A stretch of DNA of 64,000 nucleotides from positions 1,178,001 through 1,242,000 of the forward strand of contig NZ_CP102292.1 of assembly GCF_025152405.1 (NCBI RefSeq), in the 5' to 3' direction. Origin of the DNA: [Ruminococcus] lactaris ATCC 29176 (lineage in GTDB: Bacteria; Bacillota; Clostridia; Lachnospirales; Lachnospiraceae). The notes beneath the pieces were generated by a model. The model was given only the letters and a program-made list of their open reading frames with translations. It ran no database searches and was not told the origin of the DNA. Made by a program: the position numbers and the translations under genes. Positions 57,137-63,990 of this stretch are shown piece by piece (the first letter of the stretch is position 1; each line of letters begins with the position of its first letter).

Positions 57137-58288
57137 TTACTTAACGCCGAAGATGGCCATAAATGTTCCGGCTGCTACTGCAGTACCGATAACTCCGGCA
57201 ACGTTTGGTCCCATTGCATGCATAAGCAGGAAGTTTGTAGGATCTGCCTCAGCACCAACTTTCTGGGATACACGTGCTGCCATAGGAACCGCAGATACAC
57301 CTGCAGAACCGATCAACGGATTTACTTTTCCCTTAGTAATCCAGCACATCAGTTTACCGAACAGTACACCTGCCGCAGTACCGAATGCAAATGCTATGAG
57401 ACCGAGGATAACGATCTTGATCGTATCAAGGTTCAGGAATGCTTCCGCACTTGTTGTAGCACCTACAGACGTACCAAGAAGGATAACTACGATATACATC
57501 AGAGCATTAGAAGCTGTCTCTGTCAACTGTCTTACTACGCCACACTCTTTGAACAGGTTACCAAGCATCAGCATACCAACCAGTGGAGCTGTTGTAGGAA
57601 GGATCACGCAGACAACGATCGTAACAATGATCGGGAACAGGATTCTCTCCAGTTTGGAAACCGGACGAAGCTGATCCATTTTGATCTTTCTTTCCTTCTC
57701 TGTTGTAAGAAGTTTCATGATCGGTGGCTGGATGATCGGCACAAGTGACATATAAGAATATGCCGCTACAGCGATTGGTCCCATGATAGCTGTCTGCTGC
57801 AGTTTACCTGCAAGGAAGATAGATGTCGGACCATCTGCACCTCCGATAATAGAGATAGCTGCTGCTGCCTTGTCGGAAAATCCAAGAGCCATCGCTCCAA
57901 GATAAGCGGCAAAGATACCAAACTGTGCTGCTGCTCCGAGAAGAAAACTCTTCGGATTCGCAATCAGCGGACCAAAGTCTGTCATAGCTCCGACTCCGAG
58001 GAAAATCAGAGAAGGAAGGATCGACCACTCGTCAAGCTGATAAAAGTAATACAGAAGTCCACCTGTACCGTTTGCTGCATCTTCAGCATGAAGCATAATA
58101 TCCGGATAGATATTTACAAGCAACATACCAAAGGCAATCGGAACAAGAAGCAATGGCTCAAAGCCATGGTGGATTGCCAGATAGAGAAACACGCAGGCAA
58201 CAGCGATCATGATCAGGTTACCAAAAGTCAGATTCATGAACGCGGTCTGATCTACGAGGTTTCCCAGCGTATTTGAAATATATTCCAT
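57137..58288 (-). CDS. oadB: Na+-translocating decarboxylase beta subunit
   Basis: 383 residues with about ten membrane helices. The functional region IIGGADGPTSIFLA contains the Asp used for Na+ binding in OadB, and GGTGGLLYYFYQL-like and GNLFKECGVVRQLTET are typical. It decarboxylates carboxybiotin and exports Na+. GGAGG lies 8 nt upstream of the ATG. Confidence 0.95.
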   Translation of the reverse strand: MEYISNTLGNLVDQTAFMNLTFGNLIMIAVACVFLYLAIHHGFEPLLLVPIAFGMLLVNIYPDIMLHAEDAANGTGGLLYYFYQLDEWSILPSLIFLGVGAMTDFGPLIANPKSFLLGAAAQFGIFAAYLGAMALGFSDKAAAAISIIGGADGPTSIFLAGKLQQTAIMGPIAVAAYSYMSLVPIIQPPIMKLLTTEKERKIKMDQLRPVSKLERILFPIIVTIVVCVILPTTAPLVGMLMLGNLFKECGVVRQLTETASNALMYIVVILLGTSVGATTSAEAFLNLDTIKIVILGLIAFAFGTAAGVLFGKLMCWITKGKVNPLIGSAGVSAVPMAARVSQKVGAEADPTNFLLMHAMGPNVAGVIGTAVAAGTFMAIFGVK

Positions 58289-58312
58289 TTGTAAAACCTC
58301 CTGGTTCAGTAA

Positions 58313-58669
58313 CTAGTTTAATGTAGCGAGTACGGCTCCTGATTCAACAGCATCACCTACTGCAACATCAATGCTGGCAATAGTTCCTGCTTCCGGGGCA
58401 ACAACCGGGATCTCCATCTTCATGGCCTCGATCACGATTACAGTATCTCCAGCCTGTACACTCTGACCAACGGATGTAGGAATCTGGAATACTTTTCCGG
58501 CTGCACCGGCTTTTACCTGGATACTTCCTGCACCTGCTGCCGGAGCTGCTTTTGGAGCAACAGCCTTAGGAGCTGCAACTGGTGCTGCTGTCTGAACTGC
58601 ACCTGCACCATTTTCTTCAACTGTTACATCATATACATTTCCGTTTACTGTAATTGTATAATTCTTCAT
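58313..58669 (-). CDS. Biotin carboxyl carrier protein
   Basis: 118 residues: a short beta N-terminus, an Ala/Pro-rich linker (about residues 28-50) and a biotinyl domain with VIEAMKMEIPVVAPEAG (biotinyl Lys in EAMKME). An ATG at 58675 is only 2 nt from GGAGG, so the second ATG at 58669 is preferred. It shuttles CO2 between the carboxyltransferases and the membrane pump. Confidence 0.93.
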   Translation of the reverse strand: MKNYTITVNGNVYDVTVEENGAGAVQTAAPVAAPKAVAPKAAPAAGAGSIQVKAGAAGKVFQIPTSVGQSVQAGDTVIVIEAMKMEIPVVAPEAGTIASIDVAVGDAVESGAVLATLN

Positions 58670-58685
58670 TTTCATATCCTCCTGA

Positions 58686-59465
58686 TTAATTCCATTTATT
58701 TGATTTTCTTCTCTTGATAGAACGAACTACAAAACCATCTGTAGAAGTTCCTTCTGAAGCTGCGATTGCTGCTGCAATAACTGCTGCAAGTTCGCCGTCA
58801 TCCGTACCTGCTGCCTGTGGTGCAGATACTGCAGGTGCCGGAGCTGCCTGTACAGGTGTTTCCTTCTTCTCTTCTGCAGCTTTTCCTTTACCGGAAAGCT
58901 TCTTCTGAAGCTTCGGAATGAATCCAAGCAGATAGATAATAAATGAAATGAAAATCAATACAACAAATACAGTTCCCATTCCAAGGATTGTATTTAATCC
59001 GGCTTTTTTAAGGATTTCTCCTGTTGTATAATGTGCGGATACTGTCATGCTCTCCATATCGCTCTTCTCATTGAATGTGAAAGCAATCTCAGCATCTCTG
59101 TCCTCAAATTTACCTTCGGATGAAAGTGTTGCACCATCATGGCTGACTTTCATTGTCCAGTCACCATGCTCAATATAAGCGCCACATTCTTCCTGAGAAG
59201 CCTTCCAGCTTTCGATCATAGTCAGGAAATCCGATCCATCGATCGGTAACTGTGCCTGTAAAAGAGTAATATCAAGATTCAGATCTCTCAGATTCTCGTA
59301 ATAATCCATATCTTCTTCAGACATAGAACTGAATGCACTGATGATTGTATCTGCATACTGCTCCATTGTCGTCTGATCATACTCTGTCGTCTCAGACTTA
59401 CCACATCCCGTAAAGCTAAGGACGAGAATGAGGATAAGTCCTAATAAACTGATTTTTTTCTTCAC
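58686..59465 (-). CDS. OadG-family subunit with N-terminal lipoprotein domain
   Basis: 259 residues. Residues 1-22 are a lipoprotein signal (LSFTGC); residues 23-150 form an extracytoplasmic domain (DUF3887-like by impression). Then comes the OadG membrane helix in GLNTILGMGTVFVVLIFISF, an Ala/Pro linker and the OadG-like tail DDGELAAVIAAAIAASEG...VVRSIKRR. OadG holds the alpha and beta subunits together. The extra outer domain is unlike the about 80-residue classical OadG. GTG start after GAGGTGAGG. Confidence 0.87.
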   Translation of the reverse strand: MKKKISLLGLILILVLSFTGCGKSETTEYDQTTMEQYADTIISAFSSMSEEDMDYYENLRDLNLDITLLQAQLPIDGSDFLTMIESWKASQEECGAYIEHGDWTMKVSHDGATLSSEGKFEDRDAEIAFTFNEKSDMESMTVSAHYTTGEILKKAGLNTILGMGTVFVVLIFISFIIYLLGFIPKLQKKLSGKGKAAEEKKETPVQAAPAPAVSAPQAAGTDDGELAAVIAAAIAASEGTSTDGFVVRSIKRRKSNKWN

Positions 59466-59479
59466 TTCGCCTCACCTCA

Positions 59480-60919
59480 CTAAACCGTACCGTGCTTTTT
59501 GTCCGGACGATTCTCTCTTTTTGTGAACAGCATTTCAAATGCACCGATCACATATTTTCTGGTGTCTGCAGGTTCGATGATGGCATCAACATATCCTCTG
59601 GCTGCTGCTGCGTTCGGACTGGACTGCAGTTCTTTATATTTTGCTGCTTTTGCACTCTGAGTATCTGCATCAGCATCTGGATACATAATCTGTGCTGCAA
59701 GTTTTGCATCCATCATACCGATCTCTGCTGTCGGCCATGCATATACAAGATCAGCACCAACTGATTTGCTGTTCATTGCTACATAAGCACTTCCAAATGC
59801 TTTTCCTACGATCACATTTACTTTCGGAACAGTCGCATTTGCAAATGCATAAGTCAGTCTGGCAACAGCCTTGGCCATGTTCTTCTCAGACTCTACAGTT
59901 GCAGCAAAGCCTGCTACATTTGTCAGCGTCAGAACCGGGATAGAGAATGCATCACAGAAATTAACGAAATCTGCTGCTTTGGCACATCCGTCAACAGTAA
60001 GTCCAGCATCAAATTCAGCCTCTGTCTCAGCATCAGCTCCGTATACTTTGGAACGGTTGGCAACGACACCTACAGTCTGTCCATTCAGACGGATAAAGCC
60101 TGTAACCATCTCTTTTGCATAATCTTTCTTTGTCTCTACAAGAACGCCATTATCAGCAATCTGTGCAAGTGCGATTGCTGTATCTTCTGATGCATTTGCG
60201 ATATCAGCACATACACGGTTCAGATCATCTGTACATTCTTCATAAGACATATCGTCTTCATAATTGGCAGGAATCATGCATACAAGTGAACGAATCTGTC
60301 CGAGAATCTCTGCCTCTGTACCGATACCATCTACAAGACCAGCCGTCTTGCTCTGATAAGCGGCACTGGCTGTATTACATCTGGAAATTTCATTTCCTTC
60401 CAGTGCATTCGGAGAATTAACAAATAATTTTCCATCGTTTTCTTCCATAAATGTGAAGTCTGCAAGACCCGGCACGATTGCAAGTCCGCCTCCGCACATA
60501 CCGAAAATAGCTGTTACCTGCGGAATCACTCCGGATGCGAGTGCCTGTTTCTGATAAAGACTTCCAAATGCCTCAAGTGCATCTGTTGCTTCCTGAAGTC
60601 TTAATCCGGCACAATCGATCAGACCGATAACAGGTGCTCCCATCTTCATTGCCATATCATAGATCCGTGCGATCTTTTTCGCATGCATCTCTCCGATAGC
60701 TCCGCCGAGAACATCAGCATCCTGACTATATACATAGACAAGATTACCATCGATCACTCCGTATCCGGTAATAACACCGTCTGAAGGAGCCGCCTTCTCC
60801 TGCATATTGAAATCGGTACTTCTTGCTGTAACAGCACCACCAATTTCAACAAAGCTTCCCTCATCAAGCAATGTGGCAATACGTCTGCTTGCTGAGTTTC
60901 CTGTTGCATTGTAGCTCAT
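59480..60919 (-). CDS. Acyl-CoA carboxyltransferase (MmdA/PccB-like)
   Basis: 479 residues: two crotonase-like carboxyltransferase halves (N-part DADVLGGAIGEMHAKKI, CGGGLAIVPGLADF; C-part NVAGF, GKAFGSAYVAMNSK, AWPTAEIGMM). MmdA/PccB/12S proteins are usually about 510 residues; here the N-terminal 30 or so residues are missing and it begins near ASRRIATLLDEGSF. It could act on methylmalonyl-CoA, propionyl-CoA or another acyl-CoA. GGAGG precedes the ATG; first gene of the operon. Confidence 0.9.
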   Translation of the reverse strand: MSYNATGNSASRRIATLLDEGSFVEIGGAVTARSTDFNMQEKAAPSDGVITGYGVIDGNLVYVYSQDADVLGGAIGEMHAKKIARIYDMAMKMGAPVIGLIDCAGLRLQEATDALEAFGSLYQKQALASGVIPQVTAIFGMCGGGLAIVPGLADFTFMEENDGKLFVNSPNALEGNEISRCNTASAAYQSKTAGLVDGIGTEAEILGQIRSLVCMIPANYEDDMSYEECTDDLNRVCADIANASEDTAIALAQIADNGVLVETKKDYAKEMVTGFIRLNGQTVGVVANRSKVYGADAETEAEFDAGLTVDGCAKAADFVNFCDAFSIPVLTLTNVAGFAATVESEKNMAKAVARLTYAFANATVPKVNVIVGKAFGSAYVAMNSKSVGADLVYAWPTAEIGMMDAKLAAQIMYPDADADTQSAKAAKYKELQSSPNAAAARGYVDAIIEPADTRKYVIGAFEMLFTKRENRPDKKHGTV

Positions 60920-61361: not shown

Positions 61362-61670
61362 GAAAAAGCCGGATGGTTATTGAGTAAGATATTCGATCGT
61401 AAAGATGTCGGGGGCAAAAGCCCCCGACTTTGATGCCTACGGATTGCTCCGTGCTACGCACTCCCACAATCCTACCCAATATTCGCATATCGTGGGATTA
61501 TCATCCCACGATATGCGAATATCGGGGCGGGTCCTAAGGTCTTTCACCCACCTATGAACAAGCTCATGTGGGCTTAGACCTTTTGCCCCTGGCATCTCGT
61601 AAATATTAGATAGTAGATATTGTATTTACTATTTGACAAATCATTTATCTTAGTCGATAACCTTCCGGCT
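61362..61670 (-). terminator. Central hairpin of foldback copy B, split by the insertion
   Basis: Arms 61367-61390 and 61647-61670 match those of copy A. The U-tract on the minus strand follows at 61362-61366. The loop is enlarged to 256 nt by the nested element, which may weaken folding, although the nested element has strong hairpins of its own. Confidence 0.5.
61403..61597. mobile_element. MITE-like 195-bp element with terminal inverted repeats
   Basis: The ends are AGATGTCGGGGGCAAAAG (left) and AGATGCCAGGGGCAAAAG (right, other strand), 16 of 18 identical. It is flanked by the direct repeat CGTAA at 61398-61402 and 61598-61602. Copy A of the host repeat has a single CGTAA at the same place (GATCGTAAATAT), so the empty site is known. 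Inside are a perfect 20-bp inverted repeat (61479-61498 with 61503-61522) and an imperfect one between AAGGTCT and AGACCTT. No coding capacity, so it would move only with a transposase supplied in trans. Confidence 0.85.
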
Positions 61671-62001: not shown

Positions 62002-63990
62002 TTAATGTCTGTTCCGATACTGAACCGGCGTGATATTGTACATCTTCTTAAAGATCCGGTTAAAATGTTCTACATTCTGATATCCGACAGATTCTGCGAT
62101 GCTTTCTACAGTAGCACTGCTGCTCTTGAGCATTGCACGTGCCTTTTTCATTCTGACCTGCTTAAGAATATCCCCGAAAGTCAGTCCGGATTTCTCTTTA
62201 ATATATTTAGAGAGATACGGTTTGGAAAGGAAAAACTTTTCTGAAAGGTCATCCAAAGTCACATCTTTATAATTTGCGTAGATGTAGTTGGTGATTTCTA
62301 AAAGTCTTTCATCTTTGCAGGACTGGGATTCGGCAATTTCCGGCAATTTATTTACGGCGACTACCAGAGCCTGGATGGATGCTTTAATAATGTCGGCATC
62401 AATTCCGACTCCCCAGTATTTCTTTTTATTACAGATAACACCAACGTAAGCAACTGCACGGGAAGAAGATCCTTTTGTAAGAGAATGTTCTTCATAAAAA
62501 GCAAGTTCGTAACTGATGCCAAAGTAATGCTTGATCGCATTGCTTACTGCATCCAGGCGTCCGTTTCCAACACCTGTGATCTTGTGGTTATTGTCATTCT
62601 GATGGATCGTTGCTTCTGCTACGATACCATCTTCCTGCTTAAAGTGGCATTCGTCCACACTGAAGATTGGTTTTGCACTGATATAATGATCCTCAAAAAT
62701 ACGATATACAACATCCGGTGTCAGTTCCTGATGAGCCTTGTCAGAAACATCTTTTACCATGTATCCGACTTCTTCTCTCATCTTCTCCGGCAGGCTGATA
62801 CCAAAGCTCTGCTTCAGAATATAGTTTACGCCACCTTTTCCTGACTGGCTGTTGATACGGATAACATCCGAATCATATCTTCTTCCAACATCCTGTGGGT
62901 CAATCGGAAGATATGGAACTGTCCATGTCTTGCAGTCATGTTCTTCTCTCCATGCCATGCCCTTTGCAATCGCATCCTGATGGGAACCTGAGAACGCAGT
63001 AAATACAAGGTCACCTGCATATGGCTGACGAGGAGAAACTTTCATTCTTGTAACACGCTCATATACTTCGCAGATCTCACTCATATTGGAAAAATCAAGA
63101 TTTGGATTTACTCCCTGTGAGAACATGTTCATGGCAAGAGTAATGATATCTACGTTTCCGGTTCTCTCACCGTTTCCAAACAATGTTCCCTCAATCTTAT
63201 CTGCTCCGGCAAGGATTCCAAGTTCTGCATCTGATACACCTGATCCTCTGTCATTATGTGGATGAAGGGAAAGGATTACGTTTTCGCGGTGTAATAAATG
63301 TTTGTTGAAATACTCTACCTGACTGGCAAATACATGCGGCATTGCATTTTCTACCGTTGTAGGAAGATTGATGATCGCTTTGTTGTCAGCAGTTGGCTGC
63401 CATATATCAAGGACAGCGTTGCAGACATCCAATGCATAGTCAACTTCTGTTCCCTGGAAACTTTCCGGACTGTACTGGAAAGTGAAGTTTCCTTCTGTTT
63501 CCTCGGCAAGCTTCTTTAATAATGTAGCTCCATCAATGGCAATCTGCTTAATTTGCTCTTTATCTTTGCGGAATACCTGTTCACGCTGTGCTACAGAAGT
63601 TGAATTGTATACATGGATGATCGCATGTGGAGCACCCTTTACAGCTTCAAAAGTTTTTTTGATGATATGTTCTCTTGCCTGAGTCAGAACCTGAATCGTA
63701 ACGTCATCAGGAATCATATTCTGCTCGATCAATGTTCTAAGAAACTGATACTCTGTCTCAGATGCTGCAGGAAATCCTACCTCGATCATTTTAAATCCAA
63801 CATCTACGAGGAGCTGGAAAAACTCCAGTTTTTCATCCAGGCTCATTGGTTCGATCAGTGCCTGGTTTCCATCCCGCAGATCCACACTGCACCAGATCGG
63901 TGCTTTATCAATAGAATCTTTTTTTACCCAGTCATAACATGGCTCTGGCGGCATAAAATAAGTCTTTTCGTATTTTTTCCAGTTTTCCAT
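62002..63990 (-). CDS. leuA: 2-isopropylmalate synthase fused to an AraC-type DNA-binding domain
   Basis: 662 residues. Residues 30-400 are the HMGL-like catalytic barrel of the type 2 (TIGR00970-like) synthase: [13 protein letters not shown] (37-49), HPHNDRG (243-249, metal His) and [10 protein letters not shown] (272-281). Residues about 440-550 are the LeuA allosteric (leucine-binding) domain. Residues 560-662 are an AraC/XylS domain with two HTH motifs ([20 protein letters not shown] and [20 protein letters not shown]) ending TPVQYRNRH. The enzyme makes 2-isopropylmalate from acetyl-CoA and 2-ketoisovalerate. The fusion suggests leucine-sensitive transcription control, which is inference. 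The start sits 10 nt from the window edge; its ribosome site is not clear. Confidence 0.93.

Follow-up and report, generated by a model that had tools for sequence, protein, structure and literature searches.

A 2-isopropylmalate synthase with a C-terminal AraC-type DNA-binding domain and a candidate operator in the promoter of its own gene

Within the window, by which we mean the whole stretch of 64,000 nucleotides that was analysed, the gene here called leuA-HTH forms a single frame with an ATG start, 662 codons and no internal stops (Table 1). The preliminary description had read it as a complete 2-isopropylmalate synthase (LeuA), leucine domain included, joined to a complete AraC-type domain, which was confirmed by Pfam, by NCBIfam and by an open reading frame free of stops. 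All LeuA domains (i.e., catalytic, post-catalytic and LeuA_dimer) scored above the curated Pfam cut-offs, and the NCBIfam model NF002991 (2-isopropylmalate synthase) matched residues 5-548 with 809 bits against a cut-off of 455. In the C-terminal part, the Pfam profile HTH_18 was matched over positions 1-80 of 80 (5.9e-21; 75 bits against a cut-off of 33.6), and HTH_AraC matched residues 621-660. The sequences DLRDGNQ (residues 37-43), HPHNDRG (243-249) and GNGERTGN (272-279), which we take to be the catalytic motifs of LeuA, did not vary across 24 aligned fused sequences. M1 was common to 23 of these 24 and AAGGAG lies 5' of the ATG, both of which fit a start at M1. As had also been proposed, the allosteric domain of the enzyme directly precedes the DNA-binding part, with only a linker of about 11 residues in between.

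An AlphaFold2 model of the monomer, built with 24 sequences, reached moderate overall confidence (pLDDT 76.9, pTM 0.54); per region, the leucine domain and the HTH part mostly scored 80-93, and residues 319-384 mostly below 50. In this model, the first HTH helix begins at residue 561. The best Foldseek matches corresponded to Mycobacterium tuberculosis LeuA, and by sequence the HTH part matched YesN-type, SoxS, MarA and AraC chains.

Table 1. Coordinates of leuA-HTH, its parts, its promoter elements and the A-runs of split relatives.
Feature	Position	Strand	Remarks
leuA-HTH, 2-isopropylmalate synthase + AraC-type DNA-binding domain	62002..63990	minus	662 aa, stop codon included
HMGL-like catalytic domain, residues 31-307	63070..63900	minus	Pfam 2.5e-69
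IPMS_D2 post-catalytic domain, residues 327-393	62812..63012	minus	Pfam 9.8e-34
LeuA_dimer allosteric (leucine) domain, residues 422-549	62344..62727	minus	Pfam 8e-26
Linker, residues 550-560	62311..62343	minus	~11 residues, little conserved
AraC-type DNA-binding domain, two HTH, residues 561-662	62005..62310	minus	HTH_18 at 582-661
O2-like partial site	64006-64028 in window numbering (L116:10006-10028)		leuA promoter, outside the window
Extended -10	64045-64053 in window numbering (L116:10045-10053)		TGATACTAT; leuA promoter, outside the window
Operator O1 (candidate)	64075-64112 in window numbering (L116:10075-10112)	minus	ATATTAAAATATATCAATAAAACTGATTAAATTCACCA
A9/A8 runs	L073:1600-1740; L075:7270-7400; L083:7560-7690; L142:900-950		HTH in -1 frame

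No second LeuA was found in the source genome (2.73 Mb, one contig), where the other nine matches covered the C-terminal part only. By the names assigned by eye from translations, leuC-leuD map to about 758 kb, and the position of leuB-ilvD-ilvB is about 1,076 kb, so that leuA-HTH stands apart from both. Also by eye, its upstream neighbour resembles a D-Ala-D-Ala carboxypeptidase, and an apparent biotin-dependent decarboxylase set (carboxyltransferase, small subunit, biotin carrier and membrane subunit) lies 3' of it at 57137-60919 on the minus strand; similar genes follow leuA-HTH in locus L057. A Clostridiales-1 RNA (Rfam RF01699, 136.6 bits) was detected 3' of leuA-HTH at 61431-61597 (minus strand), with a second copy at about 751 kb of the same genome (L159:1189-1356); in locus L140, this RNA is placed between a T-box and an unfused leuA. 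Named by eye, an NhaC-like transporter gene (L159:10043-11389) comes after leuCD; an asd-like gene is found upstream, and downstream there is a threonine-synthase-like gene.

With regard to its distribution, the full-length fusion, defined as a match reaching residue 659 or beyond, was present in at least 95 of the 396 genomes in the family sample. In the order sample it was found in at least 87 of 393 genomes, all of the same family among the matches listed, and in the phylum sample in 4 of 398, one of which (G923) belongs to another family. Records of Mediterraneibacter, Schaedlerella, Faecalicatena, Agathobacter and Butyrivibrio are among the named relatives that carry the fusion. Relatives in many assemblies continue through the same junction without a stop, which excludes the assembly fusion that had initially been considered at this position. 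Two frames divided by a stop at this junction, which had likewise been envisaged, are not the rule among relatives and occur as exceptions in L073, L075, L083, L142, L139 and L057; these few cases are what an assembly or annotation artefact would have in its favour, but against the number of family genomes with an in-frame fusion that explanation has a negligible probability. The long frames around LeuA in G541, G550 (L163, L164) and G342 were also inspected as other fusions and were rejected on the C-terminal side, where LeuA ends normally; in G541 and G550, LeuA lies inside an open frame of 1062-1079 aa.

A tree of the LeuA domain with 105 rows (quick search under LG+G4, no root or direction inferred, L075 left out) contained one branch (SH-aLRT 94) that sets apart 39 unfused rows, with 52 fused, 5 split and 9 unfused rows on its other side. 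Most simply, this distribution would be explained by a single gain of the HTH followed by several losses. Over 75 pairs of close fused genes, the median dN/dS was 0.025 for the LeuA part and 0.012 for the HTH, values to be read with the overlap between pairs and the high dS (medians 1.23 and 1.38) in mind. Judged by these ratios, purifying selection acts more strongly on the HTH than on the enzyme part, and the HTH is no degenerate appendage. Taken with the full-length HTH_18 match above its cut-off, this dispels the earlier concern that its residues might be too degenerate to bind DNA.

Alignment of the regions upstream of fused genes displayed one block conserved beyond its surroundings, and de novo EM on 153 non-redundant fused upstream regions (last 250 nt) yielded a 38-bp motif of 35 bits, hereafter O1, with the consensus AtATTAAAAtA.ATCAAtaaAAaTGATTAAATTTa.CA. 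In the source genome, O1 is situated outside the window, 75-112 nt past its end. With a matrix trained on half of the loci, relatives being present in both halves, 59 of the 76 held-out fused regions (last 250 nt) scored above 12 bits, compared to 0 of 48 unfused regions and 0 of 573 shuffles. When 700 nt were scanned at 8 bits, O1 was found in 159 of 165 fused and in all five split loci, compared to 0 of 48 unfused loci and 1 of 666 shuffles; a further O1 at -827 in L118, ahead of a T-box, brings the fused total to 160 of 165. Most loci scored with the final matrix had also contributed to it. Independent counts come from the half split and from 20 loci outside the matrix derivation; among these 20, O1 was present in 15 of 15 fused (19.6-46.5 bits) and in none of 5 unfused cases. 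Three of four contig-truncated genes likewise carried O1, one being the source locus again (L243) and the miss being L079, and inside leuA the best of 224 stretches scored -12.1 bits. A good O1 was absent from five of the 165 fused loci (L070, L072, L123, L249 and L288), of which L123 and L249 look, by eye, like degenerate sites. The core of O1 showed a stronger inverted repeat (r 0.67) than direct repeat at 22 bp (r 0.46; weaker direct repeat at 22-23 bp). A plain direct repeat was therefore discarded as its description. Direct repeats are an arrangement often used by AraC proteins, so that this result counts against the HTH as the reader of O1; the inverted repeat would suit a two-fold LeuA dimer.

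That a specific site near the promoter goes with the HTH was observed by comparing sequences: on the LeuA tree, O1 accompanied 52 of the 55 rows with an HTH (fused or split) and none of the 48 rows without one. In six independent pairs (starred branches) that differ in the HTH, the operator changed with the HTH in 5.9 pairs on average and against it in 0, with no difference in 0.1. The median p of the sign test was 0.031 (range 0.031-0.063); the same paired test was not significant for the T-box (median p 0.5). Genomic context was also considered. The upstream neighbours in 77 fused loci with long flanks fell into 22 families, with 55 loci sharing a single one, and O1 was retained in 18 of the 22 loci with other neighbours, and additionally in L122, so that it largely travels with the gene. 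An alternative would be that O1 is an old promoter element of another regulator and that the HTH acts elsewhere or just stabilises the enzyme. The HTH and O1 do have much common descent on the LeuA tree, but O1 is missing from each of the nine unfused rows that fall within the fused side, the split-frame genes retain it (5/5) and it also precedes the fused leuA of G923 in another family, which leaves this alternative very unlikely. O1 could also be read by another protein that co-evolves with leuA-HTH. From the pattern as a whole we conclude that leuA-HTH very probably autoregulates its expression through O1.

The geometry of the promoter bears on the direction of this putative control. An extended -10 element (TGnTAnnnT; chance occurrence 0.21 per position) was found in 101 of 115 non-redundant loci; it begins 59 nt from the start of O1 in 84 of these and 58 nt from it in the other 17, and the end of O1 coincides with the position of the would-be -35 box. 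At a spacer of 17, matches to TTGACA averaged 2.83 of 6; taking the best of three spacers, the mean was 3.25 of 6 compared to 2.56 for random letters, which indicates a -35 slightly above random, weak yet not wholly absent. Promoters of class II activators combine a weak -35 with an abutting activator site. On account of the weak -35 and of O1 abutting its place, we prefer activation over repression, and an activator role is reasonably probable.

Over the 20-120 nt that follow O1, a partial second site was observed in 75 of 160 loci, many of them near relatives, versus 4 of 800 shuffles, with a spacing of 73-74 bp in 61 of the 75; it overlaps the leader and the ribosome-binding region. A clean second operator was not obtained by de novo EM, where the motif mixed with the start region, and support for the second site comes from the O1-core scan alone. 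Looping or roadblock models may apply to it. This site is also one of the points that speak for an autogenous repressor, in which leucine-loaded LeuA-HTH on O1 and, in loci that have it, on the O2-like site near the ribosome-binding site would block the promoter. Biosynthetic genes are usually repressed by their end product, and O1 extends to the -35 region, as a repressor site might. However, the weak -35 and the constant distance between O1 and the extended -10 suit activation, and in L070 and L072, two related genomes whose fused leuA lacks O1, a TTGACT is seen instead, by eye, 17 nt before a TAGCAT. Repression consequently appears rather unlikely to us, and activation is retained below.

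RNA-based control was analysed in the same loci. By consensus pattern, a T-box was present in 39 of 48 unfused loci versus 17 of 165 fused ones, and all 17 of the latter also carry O1, upstream of the T-box. The pattern undercounts, given that L140 and L144 were negative by pattern and positive by Rfam; among 20 chosen loci, Rfam detected a T-box leader in 17, i.e., in 10 of 11 unfused (not L141) and in 7 of 9 fused loci (not L001 and L087). At Rfam gathering scores, neither the 20-kb leuA region of the source genome nor its leuC and leuB-ilvD-ilvB regions yielded a T-box. Mutual exclusion of T-box and O1 was considered and dropped, because 1000-nt upstream regions displayed both in the 17 fused loci, with L122 as the 18th under a looser pattern; the apparent exclusion had come from short upstream regions (107 fused, 84 with O1, 4 with a T-box, 0 with both). 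Based on the pattern and Rfam counts in unfused and fused loci, the HTH/operator pair replaces the T-box in most fused loci examined and coexists with one in some.

The search was extended to targets beyond leuA. In the source genome, the pattern AWATCAANNNNNNTGATTAAWTT gave five matches with up to two mismatches, the sole exact one at leuA and the other four with two mismatches, compared to three for the reversed control. Across 30 fused genomes and allowing one mismatch, 39 matches were obtained, 22 of them at leuA (10 exact and 12 with one mismatch); this pattern is stricter than the matrix, since it reached leuA in 22 of the 30 genomes and missed it in 8. Every one of the 10 exact matches lay at leuA. 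The 17 matches away from leuA all had one mismatch and contrasted with 4 for the reversed control, which leaves room for further targets. With the half-trained matrix at 12 bits, O1 was detected in 0 of 32 leuB and 0 of 35 leuC regions, and with the full matrix the best scores were -10.5 and -7.2 bits, respectively, over the 30 and 33 distinct regions that remain of these sets, which contain repeats of the source locus and a few regions from unfused loci. In silico, leuA thus stands out as the one strong target of the O1-type site, with minor sites being possible. A wider branched-chain amino acid (BCAA) regulon as the main target was set aside, as all leuB and leuC regions lack O1. That the HTH serves such a regulon could draw on the leucine binding of the LeuA domains of known enzymes (3fig) and on the one-mismatch sites away from leuA, but with leuB and leuC devoid of the motif and exact matches confined to leuA it is improbable. 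Accordingly, of the initial suggestion that a leucine or BCAA regulator is built on LeuA, the part concerning its own promoter gained ground from the conserved operator that goes with the HTH, and no sign of a BCAA regulon emerged. A different conserved element, approximately AATTTAGnnAATTAAAG followed by TTGAAA, precedes the -35 of leuB-ilvD-ilvB in many fused genomes among the matches listed (L160:8090-8170 and the leuB upstream regions L183-L212).

In four genomes from two lineages, the enzyme and the tail lie in different frames at A8 or A9 runs, located at the place that corresponds to the linker. In L073, L075 and L083, the LeuA frame ends in TCA AAA AAA AAC TGA (A9), and in L142 in TTA AAA AAA ACG AAT TAG (A8); the heptamers A AAA AAC (A9) and T TTA AAA (A8) are of the -1 slippery type. 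At the junction, none of the 166 fused and none of the 48 unfused genes has a run of at least eight A; anywhere in the gene, such a run occurs in 3 of the 166 fused ones. The HTH frames of the split genes are open over approximately 100 codons, O1 is retained in L075, L083 and L142 (i.e., in the A-run genomes with enough upstream sequence), and between the run and the first ATG of the HTH frame L073, L075 and L083 show two differences, each of them silent when read in the HTH frame. The two lineages are apart on the LeuA tree, in which L075 was not included. These features of the sequence make programmed frameshifting or slippage likely in the A8/A9 genes. The rival explanation would be that the homopolymer acquired an indel error in draft assemblies; in L075, a second break inside LeuA calls for caution about that assembly. 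A separately started HTH protein is a further possibility. No further A-run case could be drawn from the genus of G063, for which there was no second genome. L139 and L057 are split without an A-run, and the split in L057 looks like a MAG error.

Sequence comparison shows that the fusion exists and is conserved, that there is an operator which co-occurs with the HTH and is concentrated at leuA, and that the promoter geometry is fixed. On this basis, we consider it likely that leuA-HTH encodes a bifunctional enzyme-regulator that acts on its own promoter as a leucine-switched activator. The LeuA part would synthesise 2-isopropylmalate and carry the leucine-binding dimer domain, and the C-terminal AraC-type domain is predicted to bind O1 in the promoter of its own gene. 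When leucine is scarce, the bound protein would recruit RNA polymerase (class II activation), for which O1 at the place of the -35, the fixed extended -10 and the weak -35 make recruitment the most likely mode. Leucine bound to the domain beside the HTH would then alter the geometry of the HTH pair and turn the promoter off, so that one allosteric site might both inhibit the enzyme and halt its synthesis; that leucine is the signal is fairly probable. In some lineages, a programmed -1 frameshift or transcript slippage at A8/A9 before the LeuA stop may allow one gene to yield both plain LeuA and LeuA-HTH, an output of two products that would set the ratio of enzyme to regulator; we propose only tentatively this combination of a whole feedback-inhibited enzyme, as effector of an AraC-type activator with practically one target, with frameshifting or slippage.

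If this holds true, a textbook feedback enzyme would also be the sensor and the transcription factor of its own gene, such control would exist in about a quarter (at least 95 of 396) of the sampled genomes of a gut-bacterial family, and an enzyme-regulator would work beside or in place of RNA (T-box) control. The defined operator, the promoter geometry and the natural losses make the question of how an allosteric domain drives a DNA-binding domain directly testable, and leuA-HTH might serve as a leucine sensor in synthetic biology.

Within the available portions of open-licence papers, we found none on a LeuA-AraC fusion. Enzymes doubling as repressors are nevertheless documented in the text available from PMC6978683, namely the proline dehydrogenase PutA, which represses the put operon, and the biotin ligase BirA, the repressor of the biosynthetic bio operon, so that the designation of leuA-HTH as a new kind of regulator in the preliminary description was too strong. 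Like PutA, as presented in that text (PMC6978683), leuA-HTH would be a metabolic enzyme that also controls the genes of its pathway. In contrast, PutA is catabolic and combines a different enzyme with a different DNA-binding fold, while the site associated with leuA-HTH lies at one biosynthetic gene, its own. The DNA-binding fold of PutA is a ribbon-helix-helix. With BirA it would share the union of enzyme and regulator in biosynthesis, BirA being a repressor (PMC6978683, in the part available); the HTH of group II biotin ligases is N-terminal, according to the accessible part of PMC4016012, whereas in leuA-HTH the DNA-binding domain is of the AraC type, lies at the C-terminus and follows an allosteric domain for the end product. 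With AraC/XylS-type proteins (YesN, 3lsg; MarA, 1bl0; AraC, 2k9s) it has in common the two-HTH DNA-binding domain, as seen in sequence matches, and it differs from them in having a complete catalytic enzyme, feedback site included, as the effector part. M. tuberculosis LeuA (1sr9, 3fig) resembles it in the enzyme and the leucine domain (46% identity over about 550 columns), although that 644-residue chain aligns to residue 548 of the query only and has no DNA-binding domain. In the T-box control of leuA, a leader RNA before the gene occupies the role that a protein would play in leuA-HTH. Enzymes acting as repressors are thus known, and what is new here is the 38-bp promoter motif that goes with the tail of leuA-HTH.
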